This document shows positions 723-15,959 of a stretch of DNA of 15,959 bases, in pieces. Position numbers and translations under genes: made by a program. Position 1 is the first letter of the stretch, and every line of letters starts with the position of its first letter. This DNA is from Candidatus Poribacteria bacterium (GTDB lineage Bacteria; Poribacteria; DTPJ01; WJIO01). The notes below the pieces were generated by a model. That model was not told where the DNA came from. It was given only the letters and a program-made list of their open reading frames with translations, and made no database searches. The stretch is from positions 1 to 15,959 of the forward strand of contig WJIO01000448.1 in the NCBI GenBank assembly GCA_014730235.1. Reading direction: 5' to 3'.

Positions 723-3700
723 ATGCGTATTAAATCAGTCAATTTCCTTTGGATCAAATCTACGTTAATTTTTATTTCTGTTTCCCTTTTGCTGTTATTG
801 GTCAATAATTCCTATGGTTTTGGTATCCCTCAACCTTATTATACCCTTTGGGGGAGAGCATACGTTGATAATGTGCAACTCACCAGGGAAGATGATCAAT
901 ATGTTGTTTCTCTCAAAGTTAATGATCAGAAAATTGTTTCTTATGAAATGGGTGATGTCACAATAAATCAGGATTACTATGTTTTGAGAATACCCATGAG
1001 TACAGGGCAAAGGATTGAGGGAACAGCACAAGCTGGAGATATAGCCATTATTTTTATAAATGACATACCTATCAATGATATGTATGTTGGGCAATTTCAC
1101 GAAAAACTATCTTTTCCTTTTATTATTGGTGAACCAGGGGAAACAAAGCAACTGGATATATATGCGCAAATCCCCCCGGCATCTATAACAAATTTGTCAG
1201 CATCTACAGGCGTTAATGAAGGTGAAGTTCTTCTCACCTGGATTGCTCCCGGTGATGATATGTATCTTGGAACAGCCACAGGGTATGTGGTTAAATATTC
1301 ATCTCAGCCTATAACCAACCAGACTGAATTTGATAATGCTGATACATATTCACAATCATGGATGCCAAAATCATCAGGTGAAGGTGAAGAACACACAATT
1401 ACAGGTCTTCTTGGTGGAAAAAACTATTATTTTGCAGTTGAAGCCTATGATGACTCAACATTACAGGCCAGTATATCAAATAATCCGGTATATGCTGTAA
1501 CTGCGGATAGAACACCACCCTATGCCGCTGGACATAATCCCGAACCCTCATCTATAGTTTCAGTTGATGTAAACATTTATATTGAGTTGAAAGATGACGG
1601 ATTGGGAGTATATCAAAATACCATACAAATGTTTGTGAATGGAGTTAATGTATTACCCCAGATATCGGCAATTGTAGATGGATATTCACTAACCTACAAT
1701 CCTCCGGAAAACTTTCAGTATGACCAGGAAATTACTGTGTCTGTTTTTGCTTCAGATACAGCTATTCCACCTAATTTAATGGATATACATACATATTCCT
1801 TTCAGACAACTTCAGGAAATGCACCCTGGGTCAGCAATTTGACCATTACTCCAGAGAATCCTACAGGTAACGATAGTCTAACTGGAAGCTATGAATACCA
1901 TGACCCGGAGGAAAATCCTGAAAGCGAACTTACTGAAATAAAGTGGTATAAAAACGGTGCAGTTCAAACGAATTACAATAACGTTTTAATTATTCCATCG
2001 GAGTCTGTAGCCAAAGGAGATGAATGGCTTTTTACCGTTAAACCTCATGATGGCTACAACTACGGACAGGTTCAGGCTTCAGGAACTTTAGTTATAGGTA
2101 ATATACCGCCCGCGGCTGATAACCTCAAAATATCCCCTGATGTTCCTTTTACTTACGATGAATTGATAGCTGGATATGATTTTAGCGATGAAGACGGTGA
2201 TTCAGAAGGAGTTTCCATAATAAACTGGTATAAGGATGGTCAGATTCAGAATGATCATGATAACAAAATTACAATTTTGCCGGTTTATACAGCCAAAACA
2301 CAGGTATGGTATTTTACTGTAAAACCTTATGATGGATCAGGTTATGGTGAGATAAAGACTTCATCTTCTGTTACCATAAGGAACAGCTCTCCTGTAGCCA
2401 GTAACCCTTTAATTAACCCCTCCGTTCCTCTCACAAATGATAACCTTTCTGCCACATATAGCTACAGCGACGCGGATAATGATCCGGAATATGGCAGCAC
2501 TATAAGGTGGTATAAAAATGAGGTTATACAATCGTCATACAATAATAGCAAGATTTTGCCTTATAACGTTACATCCAAAGGACAGACGTGGCGTTTTGTG
2601 GTTAAACCCGGTGATGGAATAGAACTTGGGAGTTACCAATCTTCACCGGAAGTAGTAATCGGAAATACCCCTCCTGCTGTCAGCAACGTGGTTCTAACGC
2701 CAGCTTTACCTTCTTTGAGTGATAATTTACAGGTTGAGTATGATTACAGCGATCCTGATAGTGATCCTGAAAGCGGAACGGAAATTAAGTGGTATAAAAA
2801 TGGAATAATTCAGGATGTTTATGCAAACTCCCTTGTAATTCCATCTGCTGCCCTCGCAGAAGGTGACCAATGGTATTTCACTATTAAACCTAAAGATAAT
2901 TTTGATTTTGGAGAAATTGTTACATCCAATTCAGTGACTGTTATTGTTGGTAATACACCTCCTGTTGTCAGTGACCTGTCTATAACACCAGCTTCACCCA
3001 ATACACTCCAGGATTTTACAGCTTCCTACATTTATAATGATGTCGATGATGATCCTGAGAGTGAGTCTACAGAAATCAAATGGTTTAAAAACAATGAAGC
3101 TCAACCGGATTTTAATGATATACTTACTATATCCGCTGAATATACTAATAAAGATGATTTATGGTACTTCACTGTTAAACCTCACGATGGTAAAAATTTT
3201 GGAGAAATCAGGACAAGCTCGGTTGTTAAAGTTGTTAATACTCCTCCTGTAGCTACTGGATTAACTATATCCCCCGATTCTCCTCTTACTGGTGATAATT
3301 TAGTTGCCAGCTATGAATACAACGATATAGACGATGATATTGAATCCGGTTCAATAATAAGATGGTATAAAAATAACATACTTCAAGTGGAATACAATAA
3401 CCTAAAAACTGTTTATTCTACTACTACAGCAAAGGGGGATTTATGGTATTTTACCATAGCACCAAAAGATAATACTGCTTTTGGTGAGACCAAAAATTCT
3501 GGTGCGGTTATAATAGGCAACACACCACCTTCAGCAACTAATGCTGTTATAATTCCAGAACAACCAGTAACCAGTGATAATCTCAAAGCAAGCTATAATT
3601 ATAGCGATGTTGACGGCGATCCGGAAGAAGGCAGTACCATAAGATGGTATAAGAATAATAATATAGATTCGACATATAATGATGCCGAAATTTTGCCAGC

Positions 3701-4595
3701 AAGCGCAACCACCAAGGGTCAGGAATGGCGTTTTGTAATCAGACCCGGAGATGGTGCTACTTTGGGTACATATTTATCATCACCTGTTATTGTAATTGGT
3801 AATACACCACCAGTTGCAAATGCCGGTGAAATTTATGAAGCCAAACCCGGTGAAACAGTTTTTTTTAATGGCTCATCATCTTACGATGTGGACAATGATA
3901 TTCTGGAATACCACTGGGATTTTGGTGATGGTACAAAGGGTGTTGGTAAAACAATAACTCATATTTATGAAGACCAAGGTGTTTATAATGCTAGGTTAGT
4001 TGTAAATGATGGTTCTGTAGATTCATTAATATCCAAAGTTGACGTATATATTGGTACGGATCCCAGTTATGTTCAGCAAATGACTTTTGAATTAGCTGAG
4101 GGTTGGAACCTCATATCTTTCTTCGCTCAGTCTGCTGATAAAAGTCTGGAGGCAGTTCTTGAATCCATTGACGGTAATTATGAAGCTATATGGGGATATG
4201 ATTCTCTATCCGGTGAATGGCAAATATATGATCCGGACAATCCTCCTTTTCTAAACACCCTATGGGAAATTGAGATAGGAAAGGGATACTGGATTAAGAT
4301 GAAAACATCTGATACTCTTATTGTTCATGGAGTTAAGTTTTCATCACCTATATCATTAGAAGCCGGTTGGAATCTTGTGGGACATAATTCAGAAAACAAT
4401 CTTGATCTGGAATCCTTTATTAATCTTTTGGGAGAAATCTTTGTCTCTATATGGACTTATGACCCGTATGAAAAAAAGTGGGTAGGATATTCATCTGGTT
4501 GGCCTGACTTTCTGGAGCGGCTTGAATATTTATCACCGGGCAAAGGCTACTTGCTTAAGGTAAGTGCCAGCGGTGTGTTGAATATAGAAGAATGA
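723..4595 (+). CDS. Large secreted multi-domain protein: FN3, Ig-like repeats, PKD, two GWNLIS modules
   Basis: This 1290-residue exported protein has no visible catalytic domain. In order: Sec signal peptide (1 to about 32, hydrophobic core TLIFISVSLLLLLV); a head domain (about 35-150) shared with the next two genes; a fibronectin type III-like domain (about 151-262, with GYVVKYSSQP and NYYFAVEAYD); an Ig-like domain (about 263-366); seven tandem repeats of about 94 residues (367-1026); a PKD domain (1027-1115, with YHWDFGDGT); and two modules of about 80 residues, each opening with a GWNL motif (from about 1125 and 1213) and carrying IWxYD and GKGYW/L motifs. It lacks the FlgD-like sorting tail of the 2137-residue protein. 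The start has only a weak AAGG 11 nt upstream, but the signal peptide starts immediately, which favours this ATG. An adhesive or structural role at the cell surface is inference from architecture. Confidence 0.92.
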   Translation: MRIKSVNFLWIKSTLIFISVSLLLLLVNNSYGFGIPQPYYTLWGRAYVDNVQLTREDDQYVVSLKVNDQKIVSYEMGDVTINQDYYVLRIPMSTGQRIEGTAQAGDIAIIFINDIPINDMYVGQFHEKLSFPFIIGEPGETKQLDIYAQIPPASITNLSASTGVNEGEVLLTWIAPGDDMYLGTATGYVVKYSSQPITNQTEFDNADTYSQSWMPKSSGEGEEHTITGLLGGKNYYFAVEAYDDSTLQASISNNPVYAVTADRTPPYAAGHNPEPSSIVSVDVNIYIELKDDGLGVYQNTIQMFVNGVNVLPQISAIVDGYSLTYNPPENFQYDQEITVSVFASDTAIPPNLMDIHTYSFQTTSGNAPWVSNLTITPENPTGNDSLTGSYEYHDPEENPESELTEIKWYKNGAVQTNYNNVLIIPSESVAKGDEWLFTVKPHDGYNYGQVQASGTLVIGNIPPAADNLKISPDVPFTYDELIAGYDFSDEDGDSEGVSIINWYKDGQIQNDHDNKITILPVYTAKTQVWYFTVKPYDGSGYGEIKTSSSVTIRNSSPVASNPLINPSVPLTNDNLSATYSYSDADNDPEYGSTIRWYKNEVIQSSYNNSKILPYNVTSKGQTWRFVVKPGDGIELGSYQSSPEVVIGNTPPAVSNVVLTPALPSLSDNLQVEYDYSDPDSDPESGTEIKWYKNGIIQDVYANSLVIPSAALAEGDQWYFTIKPKDNFDFGEIVTSNSVTVIVGNTPPVVSDLSITPASPNTLQDFTASYIYNDVDDDPESESTEIKWFKNNEAQPDFNDILTISAEYTNKDDLWYFTVKPHDGKNFGEIRTSSVVKVVNTPPVATGLTISPDSPLTGDNLVASYEYNDIDDDIESGSIIRWYKNNILQVEYNNLKTVYSTTTAKGDLWYFTIAPKDNTAFGETKNSGAVIIGNTPPSATNAVIIPEQPVTSDNLKASYNYSDVDGDPEEGSTIRWYKNNNIDSTYNDAEILPASATTKGQEWRFVIRPGDGATLGTYLSSPVIVIGNTPPVANAGEIYEAKPGETVFFNGSSSYDVDNDILEYHWDFGDGTKGVGKTITHIYEDQGVYNARLVVNDGSVDSLISKVDVYIGTDPSYVQQMTFELAEGWNLISFFAQSADKSLEAVLESIDGNYEAIWGYDSLSGEWQIYDPDNPPFLNTLWEIEIGKGYWIKMKTSDTLIVHGVKFSSPISLEAGWNLVGHNSENNLDLESFINLLGEIFVSIWTYDPYEKKWVGYSSGWPDFLERLEYLSPGKGYLLKVSASGVLNIEE
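1821..3800 (+). repeat. Seven tandem repeats of about 94 codons
   Basis: The units begin at protein residues 367, 460, 554, 648, 744, 839 and 933, a period of 93-96 residues (about 282 nt). Most open with NTPPVxS/A, followed by a Y-x-Y-x-D-x-D-x-D-x-E acidic stretch, an IxWYKN motif, YNN, then WxFTVKPxDG near the end. The WYKN and KP-x-DG pattern suggests an Ig-like beta sandwich with a calcium-binding acidic loop. DNA identity between units is low, so the expansion is not recent. Confidence 0.85.
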
Positions 4596-4888: not shown

Positions 4889-6169
4889 TTGATTAGTAAT
4901 AGAAAAGGTATCGCATTATTTTTTTGTATCATTATAATTAGCCTTCTAACCCATGTAACTTTAGCTCAAGAACAGCTAACACCACCACCTTTCCCCTCAC
5001 ATCTTATTCATGGAAGTGCCACTATAGAAGGAACACAAGTGGCTGATAATGAAATGGTATCTGCTAAATTGGATCGACTATTAATTATCTTCATGGACAG
5101 TTTTGATTCCCAAGGAAAGATAAATAATATAATAAATGATCTGAATATTCAATCTGCTGCCTCTCTTAGTGTAGAAGTCAACGCACTTCAGTATTGTATT
5201 GATGAAGGTATTACGCTTCCTGCTGATGCCAATGTTGCTGATATTGACACCAATACCTGGCAGCTTACAGGAGGTGGTAGAGTTTATACCATAGTTGTCG
5301 AGAATATTGATGTCTGGAATGGGGCTGCATGGATAAACGGAAAGAAACTGGAAGTTTTTTTGCATAATGGTGTGATTGATAGATATATCATGGGATCTTA
5401 TGATACCAACGAATATATATTGGAGATCCCACTTTCATCTGACAAGGTTCTTGTAGGGACAATTGGTAATCAATATCTTTTAAGAGAACCCCTGAAAGCA
5501 ATACCTGGCGATAAAGTGTCATTCTATATTAGGGGTGTAAGAACCAATAATGTAAATGGTGAAGATGTTATCCCTGGTACTACTCTTCATGAAGTTACTG
5601 AAAAACCTATTGTTAATGTTAATATCGAAGCACCCAATGAAATACCATTCAGCATAGATCTAAAAGCTGGCTGGAACCTTATATCTATTCCTGTTTGGTT
5701 AACCAACACTAACCGTGACGCAGTTCTGGATACAATTTTAGATAGCTATATATCCATCTGGCAGTATATACCATCTCCTGTTAATGATTGGTTAACCTAT
5801 AATAATATCGACAAAGATGGTTTATTGGATACTGTTCAATCAGGAATTGGCTACTGGATAGAAATGGAAAATGATGATACTTTAACCGTTCTTGGACTTC
5901 CCATTGAAAATGGAAATATTGATTTACCGGCAGGCTGGAGTTTAGTTGGTTTTAATTCCTTGAAAAGTATTTCTTACGAAGATGCCTTAAATTCAGTTTT
6001 TAATTCATATAATTCCATTTGGACTTATATACCTTTTCCTGTTAATGATTGGATATCATATGAAAAAGGTGAAGATTATCCTGATCTGGACGTAACCCCT
6101 GGTTTTGGTTATTGGTTCGAAATGGATCAGGAGGACACCTGGGAAATTCAATGGCAAATGAGTGAATAA
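4889..6169 (+). CDS. Secreted protein with the shared head domain and two GWNLIS-type tail modules
   Basis: This 426-residue exported protein has a signal peptide (1-26, cleavage after THVTLA), a Pro-rich TPPPFP segment, and a head related to those of its two neighbours (about 35-245; MGSYDTNEYILEIPLSSD matches MGDVTINQDYYVLRIPMST of the upstream protein). An extra stretch of about 80 residues interrupts the head. The tail consists of two modules starting near residues 253 and 344, each with AGWxLxx, IWxYIPxPVNDW and GxGYWxEM motifs. It looks like the preceding 1290-residue protein with the FN3, Ig-like and PKD middle removed, so the two are probably paralogues. The start codon is TTG, chosen because GGGGGAG lies 6-8 nt upstream and the signal peptide follows at once. 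Biochemical function is unknown; I see no catalytic motif. Confidence 0.88.
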   Translation: MISNRKGIALFFCIIIISLLTHVTLAQEQLTPPPFPSHLIHGSATIEGTQVADNEMVSAKLDRLLIIFMDSFDSQGKINNIINDLNIQSAASLSVEVNALQYCIDEGITLPADANVADIDTNTWQLTGGGRVYTIVVENIDVWNGAAWINGKKLEVFLHNGVIDRYIMGSYDTNEYILEIPLSSDKVLVGTIGNQYLLREPLKAIPGDKVSFYIRGVRTNNVNGEDVIPGTTLHEVTEKPIVNVNIEAPNEIPFSIDLKAGWNLISIPVWLTNTNRDAVLDTILDSYISIWQYIPSPVNDWLTYNNIDKDGLLDTVQSGIGYWIEMENDDTLTVLGLPIENGNIDLPAGWSLVGFNSLKSISYEDALNSVFNSYNSIWTYIPFPVNDWISYEKGEDYPDLDVTPGFGYWFEMDQEDTWEIQWQMSE

Positions 6170-6234
6170 AGTGAATAATATGCTGGATGTTCACTTGATG
6201 TTTGAGATTTAATATTTTTAGGAGGGAGTACGCT

Positions 6235-9200
6235 ATGTTAAAACGTTTTACAATATTCCTGATTTGTTTTGGAATATTATCAATTTTTGTTGTTAGCAAT
6301 TTATTTGCTCAACAACCACCACCACCGCCAGAATACAAATTAGAAGGCGGTGTTTATCTTGGTAATCAGAAATTAACACCAACGACTAATACAGATCACC
6401 TTAAGTATACTGTAGAGTTAAGAAAAACATCTGACGGAACTTTAATTGCAGAACATAATATGGGAACAAAAATCGTTCCGTTTGGTGATAGTTATAGCTT
6501 TAGTGTATACCATACTTACGATCCTGATCCCGGAGTTCCTGCTCCAGAGGGCACAGAGATAGAGGTTGTAGCCTTTTATAATGGTGAGGAATTTCCTGCA
6601 TATTTCGGTAGTGGCGGAACAGCAACCAAGCTGGTAGGTACTGGAAAAGAAACTATTGATATATATTTCTTTACCAAACCCGGCACACCTCAAAGCCTGG
6701 AAACTCTTGTTGGCTCTGATGGAGCGCCTACCCTTAATAAACTGGATCTTAGCTGGATAGCACCCGGTAGTAATGTGGTCCCTGAATCACCAAATGGTAC
6801 AGGTACTGTAGGTGGATATGAAGTTAAGCTCCTGGAAGCAGGTACACCTCCCGGTGACTGGGGTACTGCTGGCGATTTAATTGCTAATATAAATGATTCA
6901 CTCCTTCCTATGGGTGAAACAGAAAATCGCACAGTTGATCTGGGTTCTCCCATGACTTACGGTAATTCTTACTATGTATCCGTAAGGGCCTTAAACAATA
7001 CTCTTGACCCAAATCCTGGATTTAATGGCTTTGCTACGGCCCAAGTCAATATGCCTCCAGAGGTTGAAAATGTTGCAATAGGTCCGGCTGATCCCAAGAC
7101 TACTGATGATCTGGTTCTTACCTATGACTATTCCGATCCTGATGGCGATGAAGAAAGCGGAACTGAAATTAAGTGGTATAAAGATGGCGTACATATGACT
7201 GAGTATGATGATATGATGGAAATACCAGCCGATGCCACTGCAAAAGATCAGACATGGAGTGTAGAGGTTGAACCAAAAGACGGTAAATCCTCTGGAAATG
7301 TAGGTCTAGCAGAAACCACAATACTGAATTCGCCACCTGTCGCCGAAGCTGATGGACCTTATGCTGGAAAAGTAGACCTGGAAGTGAATTTCAGCAGTGC
7401 AGGTACAATAGACGCTGATGACGATCCCTTAACATATCTGTGGGATTTTGGCAATGGAGATACCAGCGCCGAACCTAATCCCTCTTATACATACGCCGCC
7501 GATGGTGAATACAATGTAACTCTTGTCGTTAATGATGGTGAAGAAGATTCAGATCCTTCAGAAACGACAGCTACTATCACAGTAAATATACCACCTGTTG
7601 CCAATTTCTCCGTCTCAGATCCCCAGGATACACATTACATGAGGGGAGAAACTATTACTTTCGATGGTTCCTTATCGGTAGATGATGATGACGTCGTTCC
7701 TGACAATTTGATATTTACATGGGATTTTGGCGACGGATCTGACATAGTTGTCTCCGAGCGGGGTGATTCCACTGTAACTCATGTATATGAAATAGCAGGC
7801 ACTTATGAAGTTACGCTGACTGTTCAGGATTATCTGGATACATCAGAAGAATCAGAGCCTACACAGTTGACAATTAAAGTTGCGCCCGTAGCTATTGCTT
7901 ATCCCATGGAAGGCCCTGAAGGTGATCCACTTAGTTTTTACGGTGGTGACTCCACCGACGAAGATGGTGAAATCACCAGTTACGATTGGGATCTTGATGG
8001 CGATGGCGTGTTTGATGACGCTTCTGGTCCTAACATAGAGTATACATGGTATGACGATTTTTCAGGCACAATAGAGCTTCAGGTTACAGATAATGATGAA
8101 TTAACAAATACAACAGAGGTTCAGGTTACAATTACCAACGTAGCACCAACCGCTGTAGTAAACAATAACAGCCCAAAGGTTGAAGGTGAAGAGGTAACAG
8201 TAAACATAGTTGACATCTTTGATCCCGGTACTGAAGACACCCATACCTATGAAATTGACTGGGATTATGATGGTGAAACCTTTGTTGCTGATGAAACTGG
8301 TAATGTAGTTGCTGAAACCGTTGCGGTAACAAAGACATGGTATGACAATGATACTTTCAATGTTGGCGTAAAGATCGTTGATGATGATGGAGATTCCAAC
8401 ATATACGAAACTGAAGTCATAGTAGCGAACGCACTTCCTGATGCCGTAGCAACCAGCGATAGTCCTGTTGATGAAGGTTCTCCTGCTACTGTTACAATCA
8501 GTAATGTTACAGATCCCGGTACTGAAGACACCCATACTTATGAAATTGACTGGGATTACGATGGTGAAACCTTTGACGTTGATGAAGCTGGAAGTATAGT
8601 TGATGGAACAGCAATAGCCACAAAGACCTGGAATGATAATGGTATTAAAAATGTTGGGGTAAAGATTATAGATGATGATGGTGGTCCTGTAGTTTTAGAC
8701 CCATTGGAGATCATTGTAAATAACGTAGCTCCTACATTTGATTTAGCTGTTGTTGATGCACCTGAAGGCTCACCTGTTAATGTAAATATCAATAACGTTG
8801 CAGACCCGGGCACACTGGATACCCATACTTATGAAATCGATTGGTATTACGATGGTGAAACCTTTGATGCTGATGAGACCGGTGGCATAGTTGATGGAGC
8901 TGCAACAACGACCATGACATGGTATGACAATGATGATTATACCATTGGCATAAGGGTTATAGATGATGATGGTGATTATAGTATGGAAACTGAAGTTGTT
9001 GAAGTAGCAAATGTAGATCCTACCGCTACTGTAGACAACGACAGTCCAAAAGACGAGGGTGAAGAAGTAACTGTAGACATCAGCGAAATTGTAGATCCTG
9101 GTACAGATGATACTCATAGCTATGAAGTTGACTGGAATTGGGACGAAGTTGATGAGAACTTTGTCGCTGACGAAACTGGTGATATTGTTGATGGAACTGC

Positions 9201-12200
9201 AACAGTAACTCAAACCTGGTACGATAACAGCGATCCTGAAGAACCTTATGTTGTTGGTGTAAAAGTTATGGATGATGATGGTGGATTTAATATATATCCA
9301 ACATACGTTATCGTAAATAACGTAGCTCCCACAGCCGAAGTGACCAATGACAGCCCTCAAGAAGCTCCAAAATCCAGGGGTAAAGAAATAACTGTAACCC
9401 TCAGTGAAATTGCAGACCCGGGCACATTGGATACTCATACTTATGAAGTTGACTGGGATTATGACGGTGAAAACTTTGATGTTGATGAAACCGGAAGTAT
9501 AACCGAACAAATAGTTGACGGAAAAGTAGATATAACACACATATATGAAGAATACAAAGAAGAATACCTGGTTGGTGTAAAAATCAAGGACGACGATGAG
9601 GGTGAAAACCTCTATGATACAACAGTTTATCTTAGAGGGACTGAAATTGATGTCACTGAACTTGGTCCAAAACCTGAAGGTACACCTCTAGGTATAGTTG
9701 CAAAGGTTCTTAATCCAAATCCAATTGAAGAATATACCTACTTGTTTAAATGGAACGATGGTGAACCTGATACAGAATACAAAACTTCATCCGGAACCCA
9801 TACCGTCTATCATGTATGGTATGATGATAGCGGCGAAGGAACTGAGGAAGTTAAGGTAAAAGTTACAGATAGCGCAGGTAATGAAGATGAAGAAACAGTC
9901 TATCCTGTGATAACAAATGTAGCTCCTACAGCTACAGTAACTAACGACAGTCCAAAACCCGAAGGTGAAGAAGTAACAATAAGTATCAGCGATATTATTG
10001 ACCCGGGTACTCTTGATACTCATACCTATGCGGTTGACCTGGATTATGATGGTGAAAACTTTGATGCTGACGTTACTGGTGATGTAGTTGACGAAACTGT
10101 ATCAGTGACACATACATGGAACGATAACAATCCACTTGATGAAGAGGGTAACGTTATCCCCTATATTGTCGGTGTAAGAATTATGGATGACGATGGTGGT
10201 TCTTATATGGGTGAAACAGAAGTTATCATAACCAATGTCGCTCCTACAGCCACAATAGTCACTGAACCTGTTGATGAAGGTTCTCCCGCTACTATAAATG
10301 TAGAAGAACCTAATGAAGAAGAGCCTATTGATCCTGGAACTTCTGACATCATAACTTACTCCTTTGACCTTGACAATGACGGTGAATATGAAATTACCGG
10401 TGAGGATGCTTCTGCAACCAAAACATGGTACGAAGATGGTACATATCCTGTAAAAGTAAAGGTCGAAGATGACGATGAAGGGTCTAATGAATATACCGCT
10501 TCAGTTGTTGTTAATAACGTAGCTCCAATTGCTGTAATAACCAATGATAGTCCCAAGGCTGAAGGCAAAGAGGTAACTGTATACATAAGTAACGTTGAGG
10601 ATCCAGGTACAGAGGACACTCACACTTATGAGATCGATTGGGATTGGGATGGTATAGATGAGAACTTTGCAGCCGATGAAACCGGAGATATAGTCGAAGG
10701 ATCTGCATCAGCAACCATGACATGGGAAAATGATGGTGAATATGATGTGGGAGTAAAGATTATGGACGACGATGGCGGATTTAATATTTTCCTCACCGTT
10801 GTTGAAATTACCGACTCCGTACCTGCTGCCGCATTCTCATGGCTGCCTGAAATGCCAAAGGAAGGCTCAATCATTCAGTTCACCGATGAGTCTACTTCTC
10901 CATCTGATGAAATAGTTTCATGGGAATGGACTTTTGAACCTGAAAAGACTAGCGATTTACAGAATCCAAAGTATACCTATTTTGATGATGGTTCTTATCC
11001 AGTTACCCTGAAAGTAACCGATTCTGATGAAGATGCGGATACTGTTAAACATACTGTTGAGGTTGAAAATGTAGCTCCTGTTGTTAATGCTGGGCTTGAC
11101 CAGAAAACGAGCAGGGATAAACCAATAACAATCGTCGCTACATTTAACGATCCCGGTACTCTGGATACCCATACCGCCATGATTAACTGGGGCGATGGTA
11201 CAGAGACAGAGGGTACAGTCAACCAGGCTTTAAATACCGTTACAGGTACTCATACATATACAGCAAATGGTGAATATAATGTTACTATAACGGTAACAGA
11301 TGATGATGAAGGTGTCGGTACAGATGACCTTATGGTCGAAGTATCCGGTGTATCTCTCATAACTGCTATTTATGATGTAATGAGTACAACCCTTATACTG
11401 GAATTCAACAGTCCAATTGTACCACAACTTACATGCTTTGACTTTGTCGGTATGGAAGTTGACGATAGCGGAAATTGGGACTTCCAGTTATCAAAGAAAC
11501 AGGGACTGGTAGCAAAACTGGTTCCCGATCATCCAAATATAGTAACAGTAAACCTGAACAGGGCTATTGCAACATCAATTAACCTAGCTGTTGCTGCTCT
11601 TGGACCAAAACGTGATAAGGTTGATCTGCTGCTGAAACCGGGTGCTTTCTTTGATAATGATGGTGGAACTAATATTCCAGCAGATGTTATCCTTCAAATA
11701 TACATTGATGCCTTTAATCTAACCTACCAGGGTGATGTTGATGGTGATGGCAAAGTGAGTTCAACTGATGCTTTGATCATTCTGCAATCCACAGTCAGCA
11801 ATCCTGCGGATGTATTCCCCATATACGAAGCTGCCACCAGTGTTAATGAATGGTTTGCCGCTTATGGTAAAGATGTCGATGTATTGACTTCTCAGGCAGA
11901 CGTAAGTGGAAATGGTGAAATATCATCCTATGATGCAGCCCTGGTGTTAAGAAATGCTGTGGAATTACCAGCTTTAGCACCAAGTCTGGAAGTTGGCTCA
12001 AAGAAAGCTAAGCTGATGTTTGATGGTTATGATTCAGGCAGAATGAATGTATCAATAGCTGTTGACAATGTAACCAACGTCTACGCTACTGATATAGTCA
12101 TAAAATACAACCCCGATACGCTTTCCATTGCCGATGTGGCTGGAACATCCGCAGTATCCGATTGGGTACTTGCTGACAGCAATGAATCGGGTGAATTGAG

Positions 12201-12648
12201 AATATCCCTGGCTGGAACATCTCAACCTACAATGGATGGTTCATTGATTACAGTTACACTGGACGCTATTTCAGCAGACGCTATTAGGGATCTGGATATT
12301 GTGGATCTAACCGTAAATGACGGTATATCTAGAATAGCTATAGAGAATCTGCCCAAGTCTTTTGTACTTCACCAGAACTATCCTAACCCCTTCAATCCTG
12401 AAACATGGATTCCTTATGAGCTTTCAACACCGGCTGACGTGAGTATTGCCATCTATAACCTGAGTGGTCAGATGGTAAGACGTATTGAACTTGGCACAAA
12501 GATGCCAGGACAATATGTTGATAAATCACAGGCTGTATACTGGGACGGTAAAAACGAATCTGGCGAACTTGTATCCAGCGGCGTTTACTTCTACCAGTTG
12601 CAAGCCGGTAGGGATGTCTCAGTCAGAAAGATGATAGTGGTTAAATAA
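6235..12648 (+). CDS. Giant acidic surface protein: FN3, PKD repeats, dockerin, cohesin, type IX-like sorting domain
   Basis: This 2137-residue exported protein has a signal peptide (1-25, ending SNLFA), then QQPPPPPEY and the shared head (to about 148). FN3-like domain: 149-270. One 94-residue Ig-like repeat with IKWYKDG: about 272-364. Three PKD domains: 365-634 (LWDFGNGD, TWDFGDGS, DWDLDGDG). Acidic PKD-like repeats follow from 635 to 1525, then two further PKD domains (to about 1707), an unassigned module (about 1707-1828), a dockerin (about 1831-1915), a cohesin (about 1917-2040) and a FlgD-like/type IX-type C-terminal domain (2041-2137) starting FVLHQNYPNPFNPETW. The tail suggests secretion through the outer membrane and surface attachment. 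The start is the ATG at 6235 because AGGAGGGAG lies 6-7 nt upstream; a TTG at 6202 in frame has no such site. It lies 65 bp after the previous gene and probably shares its transcript. The very high Asp/Glu content suggests calcium binding. Confidence 0.93.
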   Translation: MLKRFTIFLICFGILSIFVVSNLFAQQPPPPPEYKLEGGVYLGNQKLTPTTNTDHLKYTVELRKTSDGTLIAEHNMGTKIVPFGDSYSFSVYHTYDPDPGVPAPEGTEIEVVAFYNGEEFPAYFGSGGTATKLVGTGKETIDIYFFTKPGTPQSLETLVGSDGAPTLNKLDLSWIAPGSNVVPESPNGTGTVGGYEVKLLEAGTPPGDWGTAGDLIANINDSLLPMGETENRTVDLGSPMTYGNSYYVSVRALNNTLDPNPGFNGFATAQVNMPPEVENVAIGPADPKTTDDLVLTYDYSDPDGDEESGTEIKWYKDGVHMTEYDDMMEIPADATAKDQTWSVEVEPKDGKSSGNVGLAETTILNSPPVAEADGPYAGKVDLEVNFSSAGTIDADDDPLTYLWDFGNGDTSAEPNPSYTYAADGEYNVTLVVNDGEEDSDPSETTATITVNIPPVANFSVSDPQDTHYMRGETITFDGSLSVDDDDVVPDNLIFTWDFGDGSDIVVSERGDSTVTHVYEIAGTYEVTLTVQDYLDTSEESEPTQLTIKVAPVAIAYPMEGPEGDPLSFYGGDSTDEDGEITSYDWDLDGDGVFDDASGPNIEYTWYDDFSGTIELQVTDNDELTNTTEVQVTITNVAPTAVVNNNSPKVEGEEVTVNIVDIFDPGTEDTHTYEIDWDYDGETFVADETGNVVAETVAVTKTWYDNDTFNVGVKIVDDDGDSNIYETEVIVANALPDAVATSDSPVDEGSPATVTISNVTDPGTEDTHTYEIDWDYDGETFDVDEAGSIVDGTAIATKTWNDNGIKNVGVKIIDDDGGPVVLDPLEIIVNNVAPTFDLAVVDAPEGSPVNVNINNVADPGTLDTHTYEIDWYYDGETFDADETGGIVDGAATTTMTWYDNDDYTIGIRVIDDDGDYSMETEVVEVANVDPTATVDNDSPKDEGEEVTVDISEIVDPGTDDTHSYEVDWNWDEVDENFVADETGDIVDGTATVTQTWYDNSDPEEPYVVGVKVMDDDGGFNIYPTYVIVNNVAPTAEVTNDSPQEAPKSRGKEITVTLSEIADPGTLDTHTYEVDWDYDGENFDVDETGSITEQIVDGKVDITHIYEEYKEEYLVGVKIKDDDEGENLYDTTVYLRGTEIDVTELGPKPEGTPLGIVAKVLNPNPIEEYTYLFKWNDGEPDTEYKTSSGTHTVYHVWYDDSGEGTEEVKVKVTDSAGNEDEETVYPVITNVAPTATVTNDSPKPEGEEVTISISDIIDPGTLDTHTYAVDLDYDGENFDADVTGDVVDETVSVTHTWNDNNPLDEEGNVIPYIVGVRIMDDDGGSYMGETEVIITNVAPTATIVTEPVDEGSPATINVEEPNEEEPIDPGTSDIITYSFDLDNDGEYEITGEDASATKTWYEDGTYPVKVKVEDDDEGSNEYTASVVVNNVAPIAVITNDSPKAEGKEVTVYISNVEDPGTEDTHTYEIDWDWDGIDENFAADETGDIVEGSASATMTWENDGEYDVGVKIMDDDGGFNIFLTVVEITDSVPAAAFSWLPEMPKEGSIIQFTDESTSPSDEIVSWEWTFEPEKTSDLQNPKYTYFDDGSYPVTLKVTDSDEDADTVKHTVEVENVAPVVNAGLDQKTSRDKPITIVATFNDPGTLDTHTAMINWGDGTETEGTVNQALNTVTGTHTYTANGEYNVTITVTDDDEGVGTDDLMVEVSGVSLITAIYDVMSTTLILEFNSPIVPQLTCFDFVGMEVDDSGNWDFQLSKKQGLVAKLVPDHPNIVTVNLNRAIATSINLAVAALGPKRDKVDLLLKPGAFFDNDGGTNIPADVILQIYIDAFNLTYQGDVDGDGKVSSTDALIILQSTVSNPADVFPIYEAATSVNEWFAAYGKDVDVLTSQADVSGNGEISSYDAALVLRNAVELPALAPSLEVGSKKAKLMFDGYDSGRMNVSIAVDNVTNVYATDIVIKYNPDTLSIADVAGTSAVSDWVLADSNESGELRISLAGTSQPTMDGSLITVTLDAISADAIRDLDIVDLTVNDGISRIAIENLPKSFVLHQNYPNPFNPETWIPYELSTPADVSIAIYNLSGQMVRRIELGTKMPGQYVDKSQAVYWDGKNESGELVSSGVYFYQLQAGRDVSVRKMIVVK
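8137..10809 (+). repeat. Array of about nine PKD-like repeats, period about 97 codons
   Basis: Units start at protein residues 635, 732, 830, 926, 1029, 1135 (divergent), 1228, 1334 and 1428. Typical units contain NVAPTAxVxNDSP, DPGTxDTHTYEIDWDYDGE, a TxTWYDN segment and VGVKIxDDDG. The first three are spaced by exactly 291 nt (the GATCCCGGTACTG-type core lies at 8221, 8512 and 8803). The first two are nearly identical across about 64 nt, which suggests recent duplication or gene conversion. The sixth unit lacks the DPGT core and is diverged. Confidence 0.88.
11722..12645 (+). other. Dockerin, cohesin and sorting-domain cassette at the C-terminus
   Basis: The dockerin has two calcium loops, DVDGDGKVSSTD and DVSGNGEISSYD, separated by an unusually long linker with DVFPIYEAATSVNEW. 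The cohesin follows, recognisable from VSIAVDNVTNVYATDIVIKY and DTLSIADV near its start and SLITVTLDAIS further on. The last 97 residues form a FlgD-like Ig fold ending GVYFYQLQAGRDVSVRKM, the usual pattern of type IX secretion sorting domains. Having both a dockerin and a cohesin makes the protein able in principle to bind in both directions. Confidence 0.8.
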
Positions 12649-12667: not shown

Positions 12668-12700
12668 AAAAGGGGTATGATTAATAATCATACCCCTTTT
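12668..12700 (+). terminator. Perfect 15-bp hairpin between the giant gene and the cohesin-dockerin gene
   Basis: AAAAGGGGTATGATT (12668-12682) and its exact reverse complement (12686-12700) are separated by AAT. The right arm ends in CCCCTTTT and is followed by GTTTT, so it has the form of an intrinsic terminator for the giant gene. The ribosome binding site of the next gene (GGAG, 12706-12709) starts only 6 nt after the hairpin. No room is left for a separate promoter, so partial read-through is the likely arrangement. Confidence 0.8.
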
Positions 12701-12716
12701 GTTTTGGAGATTGGAA

Positions 12717-13361
12717 ATGAAACATGTATCCATTATCTTATTAATTTTTGCGATTTTTGGTCTTCCCATCTTTGCCCAGGAAGTAAAAGTAAGTATTCCA
12801 GATTCTGTAGGTATACCTGGAGAAATTTTAACTATACCTATCAAGCTAAATAATGTCAATGATGTCAGCTCAGCAGAAATTATAGTTGAATATAATCAAC
12901 AAATACTTGAATTTCTGGAAGTTAACATATCAGATTCTATAACAATCAGTTGGAACATGGTTACTGGTTTTAATGAAAATCAGATTACTATAAATATAAT
13001 TTTACTCCCTGATTTATCTGGAAGTACCGGTCTTGTGGATATTAGTTTTGAAGTAAAACCTACAGCACAGGTTGGAGAAACTACATTTATAAATTTTGTC
13101 CAGGCAAAACTGAATGATGATTTTATTCAAACTCAGGATGGCAAAATCACCATAGAAGATAGTAATGGGGGAAGTGGTATTCCAGGTGATGTAAATGGTG
13201 ATTTAGTTGTAGATCGTCAGGATTTGCTGGATTTGATAATTTCCTATAGAAAAAGATCAACTGATAACGCTTATAAACCCTCAGCCGATTTTAACAATGA
13301 TGGTAATGTTAATAGACAGGATTTGAATATATTAATTGAGAACTATGGCAGACGTGACTAA
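12717..13361 (+). CDS. Small secreted cohesin-dockerin protein
   Basis: This 214-residue exported protein consists of a signal peptide (1-20, ending LPIFA), a cohesin domain (about 22-147) and a type I-like dockerin (about 157-214). The cohesin is recognisable from VKVSIPDSVGIPGEILTIPI and SSAEIIVEYNQQILEF. The dockerin has two loops, DVNGDLVVDRQD (158-169) and DFNNDGNVNRQD (191-202), with the same RQ pair at the positions that set cohesin specificity in type I dockerins. Position 5 of both loops is Asp, consistent with calcium binding. Start: ATG at 12717, with GGAG 7 nt upstream; an in-frame TTG at 12699 would lie inside the terminator hairpin. It is the last gene of the plus-strand cluster. 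It probably serves as an adaptor between a dockerin partner and a cohesin partner, perhaps the giant protein next to it; that pairing is inference. Confidence 0.92.
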   Translation: MKHVSIILLIFAIFGLPIFAQEVKVSIPDSVGIPGEILTIPIKLNNVNDVSSAEIIVEYNQQILEFLEVNISDSITISWNMVTGFNENQITINIILLPDLSGSTGLVDISFEVKPTAQVGETTFINFVQAKLNDDFIQTQDGKITIEDSNGGSGIPGDVNGDLVVDRQDLLDLIISYRKRSTDNAYKPSADFNNDGNVNRQDLNILIENYGRRD

Positions 13362-14833: not shown

Positions 14834-14841
14834 TACTATTT
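14834..14841. repeat. Left target-site duplication of MITE-like element 1
   Basis: TACTATTT directly precedes the terminal GGTTCT of element 1 and is repeated exactly at 14964-14971 after its terminal AGAACC. Confidence 0.8.
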
Positions 14842-14963
14842 GGTTCTCCCGGGCTTAGAGTGTGGTAATAATTGAAAATGCTCTCAACCTGTCATTCCTC
14901 CGAAGGCAGGAATGACAGTATAAAGAAGTTTCTTATCTTTATCACACTAAACCGGGAAGAACC
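14842..14963. mobile_element. MITE-like element 1, 122 bp, with 8-bp target duplication
   Basis: The ends are imperfect terminal inverted repeats of about 25 bp: GGTTCTCCCGGGCTTAGAG on the left and, read inwards from the right, GGTTCTTCCCGGTTTAGTG. The centre is an almost perfect palindrome, GTCATTCCT...AGGAATGAC (14891-14916). It has no coding capacity. Exact TACTATTT duplications on both sides show that it arrived by transposition. GG-starting ends and an 8-bp duplication fit a non-autonomous derivative of an ISL3-type element, but that assignment is inference. It separates the peroxiredoxin and ceramidase-like genes and would add a hairpin to their shared transcript. Confidence 0.85.
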
Positions 14964-14971
14964 TACTATTT
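14964..14971. repeat. Right target-site duplication of MITE-like element 1
   Basis: An exact second copy of TACTATTT. It contains the complement of the TAG stop codon (14966-14968) of the minus-strand peroxiredoxin, so the insertion kept the reading frame's stop. Confidence 0.8.
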
Positions 14972-15511
14972 TTGGAGTTCTTTGAGTTTATTTAAGACCT
15001 CTTCACCATGATTGCTTACATTTACTTCATTAAAAATATAAGCGATTTTACCTCCGGGTGTTATAATAAATGTTTTTCTCTTAGCCGCAGTGCCTTTTTC
15101 ATTTAAAACATTAAAAGCCTTTGAAACTTTCTTTTCGCTGTCGCTGATAAGATCAAAAGGTAGGTCGAGTTCGTTTTTGAATTTTTTCTGGGTTTCAATG
15201 TCGTCAAGACTTACACCAATAACAATTGCTCCGGTTTCTTTTATATCTTTATAGCTGTCACGCAGCGCATTTGCTTCAGCAGTTCAGCCACCAGTGAAGG
15301 CCTTTGGGAAAAAATATAAGACTACCCAGGAATCCTTCAAACTTGAAAGACTAATATTTTTATCATTAGTTCCCGGAGCGCTAAATTCCGGTGCCGCTGT
15401 TTTCGCTTTCAGTTCCATTTCACTAATTCCTTTCCTATTTTTGCTGGAACAAGCGTTAAATATTAGTATTATGATGGATAAATACAATAGAATACACCTG
15501 AAAGATAACAT
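14966..15511 (-). CDS. bcp: Selenocysteine-containing Bcp-type peroxiredoxin, lipoprotein-like (TGA at codon 76 read as Sec)
   Basis: This 181-residue thiol- or selenol-dependent peroxidase belongs to the Bcp/PrxQ class. The frame opens with AGGAGG 6 nt upstream (15518-15523), a hydrophobic signal (CILLYLSIIILIFNA) and a candidate lipobox cysteine in IFNAC, so it is probably exported and membrane-anchored. Codon 76 is TGA (15284-15286) within FPKAFTGG-U-TAEANALRD. E. coli Bcp has PKAMTPGCTVQACGLRD here, so U76 falls on the peroxidatic cysteine. Past the TGA the same frame keeps full homology: GAIVIGVSLDDIETQKKF, LPFDLISDSEKKVSKAF, KRKTFIITPGGKI (conserved Arg) and NHGEEVLNKLKEL, ending at TAG. 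The second cysteine of E. coli Bcp is Ala here, so it is 1-Cys-like. A sequencing error turning TGC or TGT into TGA, or a nonsense pseudogene, are the alternatives; the exact catalytic position argues against both. Confidence 0.85.
15254..15280 (-). promoter_or_regulatory. Candidate bacterial SECIS hairpin downstream of the in-frame UGA
   Basis: Starting 4 nt after the UGA, the mRNA can pair GCUG (15277-15280) with CAGC (15254-15257), and inside that GCA with UGC around the apical loop AAUGCGC. The loop starts about 13 nt after the UGA and contains G residues, as bacterial SECIS loops do. The stem is short and interrupted, and the distance is slightly below the usual range, so folding must be tested. 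Confidence 0.4.
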
Positions 15512-15540: not shown

Positions 15541-15705
15541 GTTTCTTCCAACTTGAGTGTGGAAATGTAAAAAATATCGTCTAATTAGTATCCAATGATT
15601 CTCTATGAATAAATTTAAAATCAAATTTTGTCATTCCTGCGAAATCAGGAATGACAACAGGTTGAGAGAATTCCAAATTATTACCGCACTAAACTCGGAA
15701 GAAGC
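15541..15705. mobile_element. MITE-like element 2, diverged mosaic copy upstream of the peroxiredoxin
   Basis: The right half (15630-15705) matches element 1 in inverted orientation: palindrome GTCATTCCT...AGGAATGAC (15630-15655), a CAGGTTGAGAG stretch, then ATTATTACCGCACTAAAC and the GGAAGAAGC end. The left end (15541-15561, GTTTCTTCCAACTTGAGTG) resembles the terminal repeat at about 16 of 21 positions. The stretch between left end and palindrome is unlike the other copies, and no target duplication is visible, so this is an old or recombined copy. It begins 30 bp upstream of the peroxiredoxin start codon and so occupies its promoter region, where I find no convincing promoter. Confidence 0.65.
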
Positions 15706-15853
15706 ATTTATTTTTATAGAATTTCAAAGGGTTTGCTATTTATAATCGGATTTTAACACAAACTCACAGCTAATTCAACTAATCATTTTCAGAACCAAGC
15801 ATAAATTTTACATCCCAGTGTTATTGCGAAGAACGGAGTAACAAATAAAGTTT
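15706..15853. other. Gene-free spacer between two MITE-like copies
   Basis: AT-rich spacer of 148 bp without coding frame or RNA gene. It contains a weak inverted repeat, TGTTATTGCG...GAGTAACA (about 15819-15843), that differs from the MITE palindrome. The last 8 bases (TAAAGTTT, 15846-15853) abut element 3 and are its predicted target duplication. Confidence 0.5.
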
Positions 15854-15959
15854 GGTTCTTCCGGGTTCAGTGTGTTAAAGATAAGAAACTTCTTTATACT
15901 GTCATTCCTGCGAAAGCAGGAATGACAAGCTGAGAAAATTTTCAAATTATTACCATACT
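15854..15959. mobile_element. MITE-like element 3, cut by the window end
   Basis: It starts GGTTCTTCCGGGTTCAGTG and continues as a close reverse-complement match to element 1: AAGATAAGAAACTTCTTTAT, then the perfect palindrome GTCATTCCT...AGGAATGAC (15901-15926), then ATTATTACCATACT at the window edge. About 15-20 bp, including the closing terminal repeat, lie beyond the window. Its orientation is opposite to element 1. Confidence 0.8.

Follow-up and report, generated by a model that had tools for sequence, protein, structure and literature searches.

Near the end of a Candidatus Poribacteria contig lies a minus-strand gene for a Bcp/PrxQ-type peroxiredoxin that carries an in-frame TGA codon at its catalytic site. 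The window, as we call the whole stretch of DNA that was analysed, is 15,959 nucleotides long and belongs to a metagenome-assembled genome (G000) of 5.53 Mb in 451 contigs (91.6% complete, 4.8% estimated contamination). The gene and the features around it are:

14966..15511, minus strand: Bcp/PrxQ-type peroxiredoxin gene, 181 residues, one predicted selenocysteine (Sec, UGA) codon
15509..15525, minus strand: Shine-Dalgarno AGGAGG and start codon
15449..15511, minus strand: N-terminal hydrophobic leader MLSFRCILLYLSIIILIFNAC, a weak candidate for a lipoprotein signal or membrane anchor
15284..15286, minus strand: TGA, predicted to be read as selenocysteine (U76), at the peroxidatic position of PxxxTxxC/U; 77 Cys and 3 TGA in the homologue column, TGA also present in a paralogue (C141) and the nearest relative from another genome (L024)
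15254..15266, minus strand: SECIS-like hairpin GCUG-CGUGA-CAGC, its stem beginning 17 nt and its apical loop 21 nt after the UGA
14839..14963, no strand assigned: REP/MITE-like repeat copy of roughly 120 bp with a hairpin, just downstream of the gene
15851..15959, no strand assigned: REP/MITE-like repeat copy in inverted orientation on the upstream side of the gene, with 87% complementarity across 92 nt

Translated from 15511 to 14966 on the minus strand, the window gives a single frame of 181 codons that runs to a TAG stop at 14966 and holds only one TGA (15284-15286). A Shine-Dalgarno sequence (AAAGGAGGATAAAG, rated good/strong) lies 5' of the ATG at 15511, and the product reads MLSFRCILLYLSIIILIFNACSSK...VLYFFPKAFTGG-U-TAEANALRDS...LNKLKELQK before the TAG. 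The Pfam domain AhpC-TSA (PF00578) covers residues 38-159 and is unbroken across the TGA (130.8 bits, E 3.5e-38), and the frame stays open for 105 codons past it. The TGA is exactly at the peroxidatic position of the motif P69-K-A-F-T73-G-G-U76; in an alignment of 26 sequences P69..T73..U76 and the active-site R145 are invariant. The first-pass annotation had placed an in-frame TGA at the peroxidatic cysteine of a minus-strand Bcp peroxiredoxin, which the domain match on both sides of the codon confirms. It was also correct that standard gene calling would yield a 75-residue product, as ordinary reading stops after G75. Its statement that the second (resolving) cysteine is missing stands, but not the alanine that it gave as the replacement: the resolving position is the +5 of CTTEAC in Bcp, and the window protein has Asn there (U-T-A-E-A-N), while the Ala is at +4, the same as in ordinary Bcp. 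The protein is thus not of the 2-Cys Bcp/PrxQ type, which is defined by a resolving Cys at +5. Besides the U76 site, the only cysteines are C6 and C21, both in the N-terminal leader.

The window protein belongs to the PrxQ subfamily rather than to other peroxiredoxins. Its closest PDB matches, by sequence and by fold, are Bcp/PrxQ proteins, and among NCBIfam models NF006960 (Bcp) scores highest, at 111.1 bits, under its equivalog cut-off of 140. The predicted structure has a pLDDT of about 98 over the domain and places U76 near the N-end of the active-site helix (residues 74-92). The fold and active-site motif are shared with the Cys PrxQ/Bcp proteins (Sulfolobus Bcp1, 3drn; Xanthomonas PrxQ), which have Cys where the window protein has its predicted Sec and in which a resolving Cys at +5, absent here, is usual (detected in 52 of 80 homologues). 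The 1-Cys peroxiredoxin AhpE of M. tuberculosis (1xxu) is a structural match with a comparable scheme, a single catalytic residue resolved by an outside thiol, but it is a Cys enzyme and by sequence falls in another subfamily. PrxU of Eubacterium (Peptoclostridium) acidaminophilum, a member of the AhpC-like subfamily, resembles the window protein in having Sec at the peroxidatic site; it is nevertheless of a different peroxiredoxin subfamily, the window protein scoring 67.5 bits against NF040737, far under the cut-off of 270. Sec-containing Bcp-type peroxiredoxins (COG1225 / PF00578, motif TxxU) are listed as known prokaryotic selenoproteins (PMC9312934, PMC13188914) and were counted in earlier surveys (PMC1794560, PMC2398784). 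The window protein has the domain, the motif and the predicted Sec at the peroxidatic position in common with them, and differs in lacking a resolving Cys (Asn at +5), in its N-terminal hydrophobic leader and in that the nearest relatives of its clade are Cys proteins. It is strongly supported that the window gene is a genuine selenoprotein gene of this already known family, in an unusual evolutionary setting.

Cys and TGA alternate at this codon among homologues, as the orthologue alignment suggested in the first pass was meant to reveal. At the column of codon 76, Cys is present in 77 of 80 homologues from other genomes and TGA in the other three (Armatimonadetes SJ283, Acidobacteriota MAG_BO43 and a Poribacterium). 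A second TGA-PrxQ of the window assembly (FTPG-U-TTEAK, 52% identical to the window protein) is encoded at a contig edge, on C141; it begins MANLSKDG and has no leader. The nearest relative outside the assembly, L024 in genome G079, is 64% identical and keeps the TGA (FTSG-U-TLEAN). The TGA is at the peroxidatic Cys column and is kept in both relatives, and is therefore not there by chance. After the TGA, substitutions at codon positions 1/2/3 number 21/9/42 between the window gene and C141, and 29/15/61 between the window gene and L024; this third-position bias indicates that the downstream part is translated as a constrained protein. We found no relatives of the window gene in viral contigs. 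The end of contig C131 in the window assembly carries a near-copy (L153) of the C141 gene, in which small indels break the frame and which ends at the same base as C141; it may be strain variation, a misassembly or a pseudogene.

By gene content, the host decodes selenocysteine. The window assembly encodes a tRNA-Sec (79 bits; called tRNA-SeC with anticodon tca by ARAGORN), SelA (530 bits), SelB (367 bits) and SelD (394 bits), the last with an in-frame TGA of its own (HGAG-U-ACKIGP). The search for selA, selB, selC and selD thus bears out the proposal that the host uses selenocysteine, all four components being in the same assembly. Lower-scoring tRNA-Sec matches in this assembly were discarded, among them L002, which is a tRNA-Trp. 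Across the phylum Poribacteria, a tRNA-Sec match over the cut-off was detected in 74 of 84 genomes and SelA in 71 of 84. Besides PrxQ, the Sec proteins of the window assembly include SelD and an AhpC/PrxU type, with TGA at the redox-active position. The AhpC/PrxU-type gene (L155, G000:C337:15868-16272) is separate from the PrxQ genes and has its TGA at the peroxidatic site (FTFV-U-PTE). The assembly holds two SelA-like genes (L015 on G000:C246; L016 on G000:C64, 424 bits), one without about 67 N-terminal positions and the other complete in length, with a score below that in most Poribacteria; contamination or a second lineage may explain the pair.

The hairpin core of the REP/MITE-like repeats that flank the gene (TGTCATTCCTGCNNNNGCAGGAATGACA) has 232 occurrences in the window assembly and none in the reversed control, and is also found on the selB contig (C31). 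That these repeats are common to both argues that the window contig and the selB contig belong together despite the 4.8% contamination. Further repeat sites were noted at window positions 15629-15690 and at L053 1970-2108. The rest of the window contains, on the plus strand, a row of large secreted-looking repeat proteins (723-4595, 4889-6169, 6202-12648 and 12699-13361), with what we take, from reading the sequence, to be PKD/fibronectin-like repeats, dockerin-like parts and a sorting-like tail (YPNPFNPETWI...KMIVVK).

The published model of the bacterial SECIS element has a stem of 4-16 bp and a loop of 3-9 nt with a G in the first two loop bases, located 16-37 nt from the UGA; its energy is at most -7.5 kcal/mol (PMC13188914). 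A check for such an element, proposed in the first pass, gave a hairpin in a conserved register after the UGA, and the window hairpin has the published geometry. The codons CTG CGT GAC AGC and the preceding third-position G are identical in the window gene, C141 and L024, although residue +6 is Ala, Thr or Met; the majority of synonymous sites nearby are variable. Synonymous recoding of the window gene, repeated 400 times, never produced an equally strong hairpin of fitting geometry (2.5% of recodings did for C141 and 1.0% for L024), in a test in which the hairpin had been seen beforehand and the criteria were the published ones. By folding energy alone the window element does not stand out (z -0.3 versus synonymous recodings); hairpin geometry and codon conservation are the only features that set it apart. 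The window hairpin is likely a SECIS, and likely rather than demonstrated because alone (4 bp, -3.0 kcal/mol) it misses the published energy cut-off; a 62-nt stretch at this site reaches -7.8 kcal/mol, but as another fold.

The same register recurs in relatives. Stems of at least 4 bp lie there at 94% of 66 Sec sites (the SelD and PrxU sites of the window assembly itself being two that were left out) versus 38% of 77 Cys homologues, a difference due in part to common ancestry and to conservation of the L-R-D peptide. Nearly all Poribacterial TGA-peroxiredoxin sites have a hairpin in this register, with the loop CGUGA or CGGGA, and the 3' partner with which the stem pairs is shifted between families. 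Second domains of the tandem proteins described below combine CUC/GAG with CUCG/CGAG and a bulged U in their stem, family f3 first domains have CUCGCUC/GAGCGAG, and one gene of family f4 has GAGUUC/GAACUC around the same CGUGA loop. The f3 first-domain hairpins have an unpaired loop of 11 nt and are missed by the geometric scan (loop of at most 9 nt). Two f4 genes and the two Sec genes from other phyla have a different fold.

One base change turns a usual Cys codon into TGA, and the gene might accordingly be a decaying pseudogene in which TGC or TGT has mutated to a true nonsense codon; the garbled near-copy of the C141 paralogue on contig C131 would fit such decay. Against this, the frame is intact for the 105 codons beyond the TGA, where third positions account for most changes, the TGA is shared with the paralogue, with L024 and with others across Poribacteria, and the genome decodes Sec, which makes a nonsense mutation very improbable. 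A misreading of TGC or TGT as TGA during sequencing or assembly is conceivable for a single metagenome assembly, but would have to coincide with the independent occurrence of TGA at the same codon in C141, in G079 and at dozens more Poribacterial sites, with a conserved hairpin downstream; we give this explanation even less credence. Readthrough alone cannot tell Sec from other residues, so that a reassigned code, with UGA decoded as Trp or Cys, would also leave the frame open. However, the other long open reading frames of the window follow table 11, the tRNA-Sec with its tca anticodon is present together with SelA, SelB and SelD, and in PrxQ, AhpC/PrxU and SelD of this genome the TGA is at the redox-active position, as expected for Sec. 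Reassignment is about as improbable as gene decay.

We estimate at roughly 95% the probability that the window gene encodes a Bcp/PrxQ-type peroxiredoxin with selenocysteine as its peroxidatic residue, the UGA being read through to the TAG. A gene that looks broken is almost certainly intact, its internal stop read as selenocysteine at the active site. SelB would bring Sec-tRNA(Sec) to the in-frame UGA, the short hairpin 3' of the codon would help Sec insertion, and the ribosome would continue past it to the TAG. In the enzyme, the U76 selenolate would attack the peroxide and reduce it to water or alcohol, and an outside thiol would then reduce the selenenic acid so formed. Recycling by an outside thiol is suggested because the protein has no resolving Cys and its other cysteines are confined to the leader; the earlier view of a 1-Sec enzyme needing an external reductant is a reasonable one.

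The lipoprotein-like signal proposed for the N-terminus fares less evenly. There is a hydrophobic leader, modelled as a helix over residues 4-21 (pLDDT about 65), but the lipobox is off-consensus and the leader is not conserved in L024. Compared by eye with [LVI][ASTVI][GAS]C, the sequence IFNAC has a fitting Ala at -1 but departs from the pattern at -2 (Asn) and -3 (Phe), and positive charges come after the lipobox-like cysteine. L024 begins MFIAINAC, only 8 residues before the same Cys, with no room for a signal peptide. A lipoprotein or otherwise membrane-anchored product is plausible but weakly indicated.

In a maximum-likelihood tree, the window protein, L024 and C141 form one clade (95/91). 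The supported group in which it lies (98/90) has five further members, all with Cys at the peroxidatic site and four with the resolving Cys as well. The residue at +5 in the window clade is Asn, Lys and Asn (window, C141 and L024, respectively), its Cys lost. Family f4 mixes Sec (G040, G055, G073) and Cys (G003, G078) forms, and two-domain proteins form a separate clade (100/98). Leaving lineage-to-lineage transfer aside, the simplest reading of the tree would be at least three Cys-to-Sec switches within the phylum Poribacteria. Less ordinary is that Sec appears to have been gained in the clade of the window protein, which lost the resolving Cys.

The tandem two-domain, two-Sec version is carried by most Poribacterial families. 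At the 20 f3 loci and the nine f5, f6 and f8 loci examined, a single frame of about 340 codons encodes a pair of peroxiredoxin domains. Both domains have a TGA at the peroxidatic site, and most of the proteins begin with a signal-like stretch. Examples are L026 (1444-2481) and L134-L142, which look exported. The second domain has Cys at +5 in every copy examined (GUT-x-x-VC), and the first varies (FTGGU-TAEL-C/Q/N/R, that is Cys, Gln, Asn or Arg at +5). A published selenoprotein table gives the peroxiredoxin one Sec (PMC13188914), and no NCBIfam model match describes the tandem form. Our literature search for selenoprotein peroxiredoxins in Poribacteria found nothing, though two papers naming Poribacteria and selenocysteine exist. 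On balance, we lean towards a history in which PrxQ underwent three or more Cys-to-Sec changes in Poribacteria, with the window clade and the f4 Sec forms lacking the +5 Cys, and in which other families duplicated the Sec domain into an exported-looking chain with two active sites, most with the same-register hairpin; the tandem form may be a new selenoprotein architecture.

Because standard annotation cuts the enzyme short, it understates the antioxidant capacity of uncultured Poribacteria. The family provides repeated natural replacements of Cys by Sec at a single catalytic site, in some cases accompanied by loss of the resolving Cys, which make it directly testable whether Sec removes the need for a resolving Cys. 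The tandem two-Sec relatives offer a test of how one mRNA would decode two UGAs, each with its own element.
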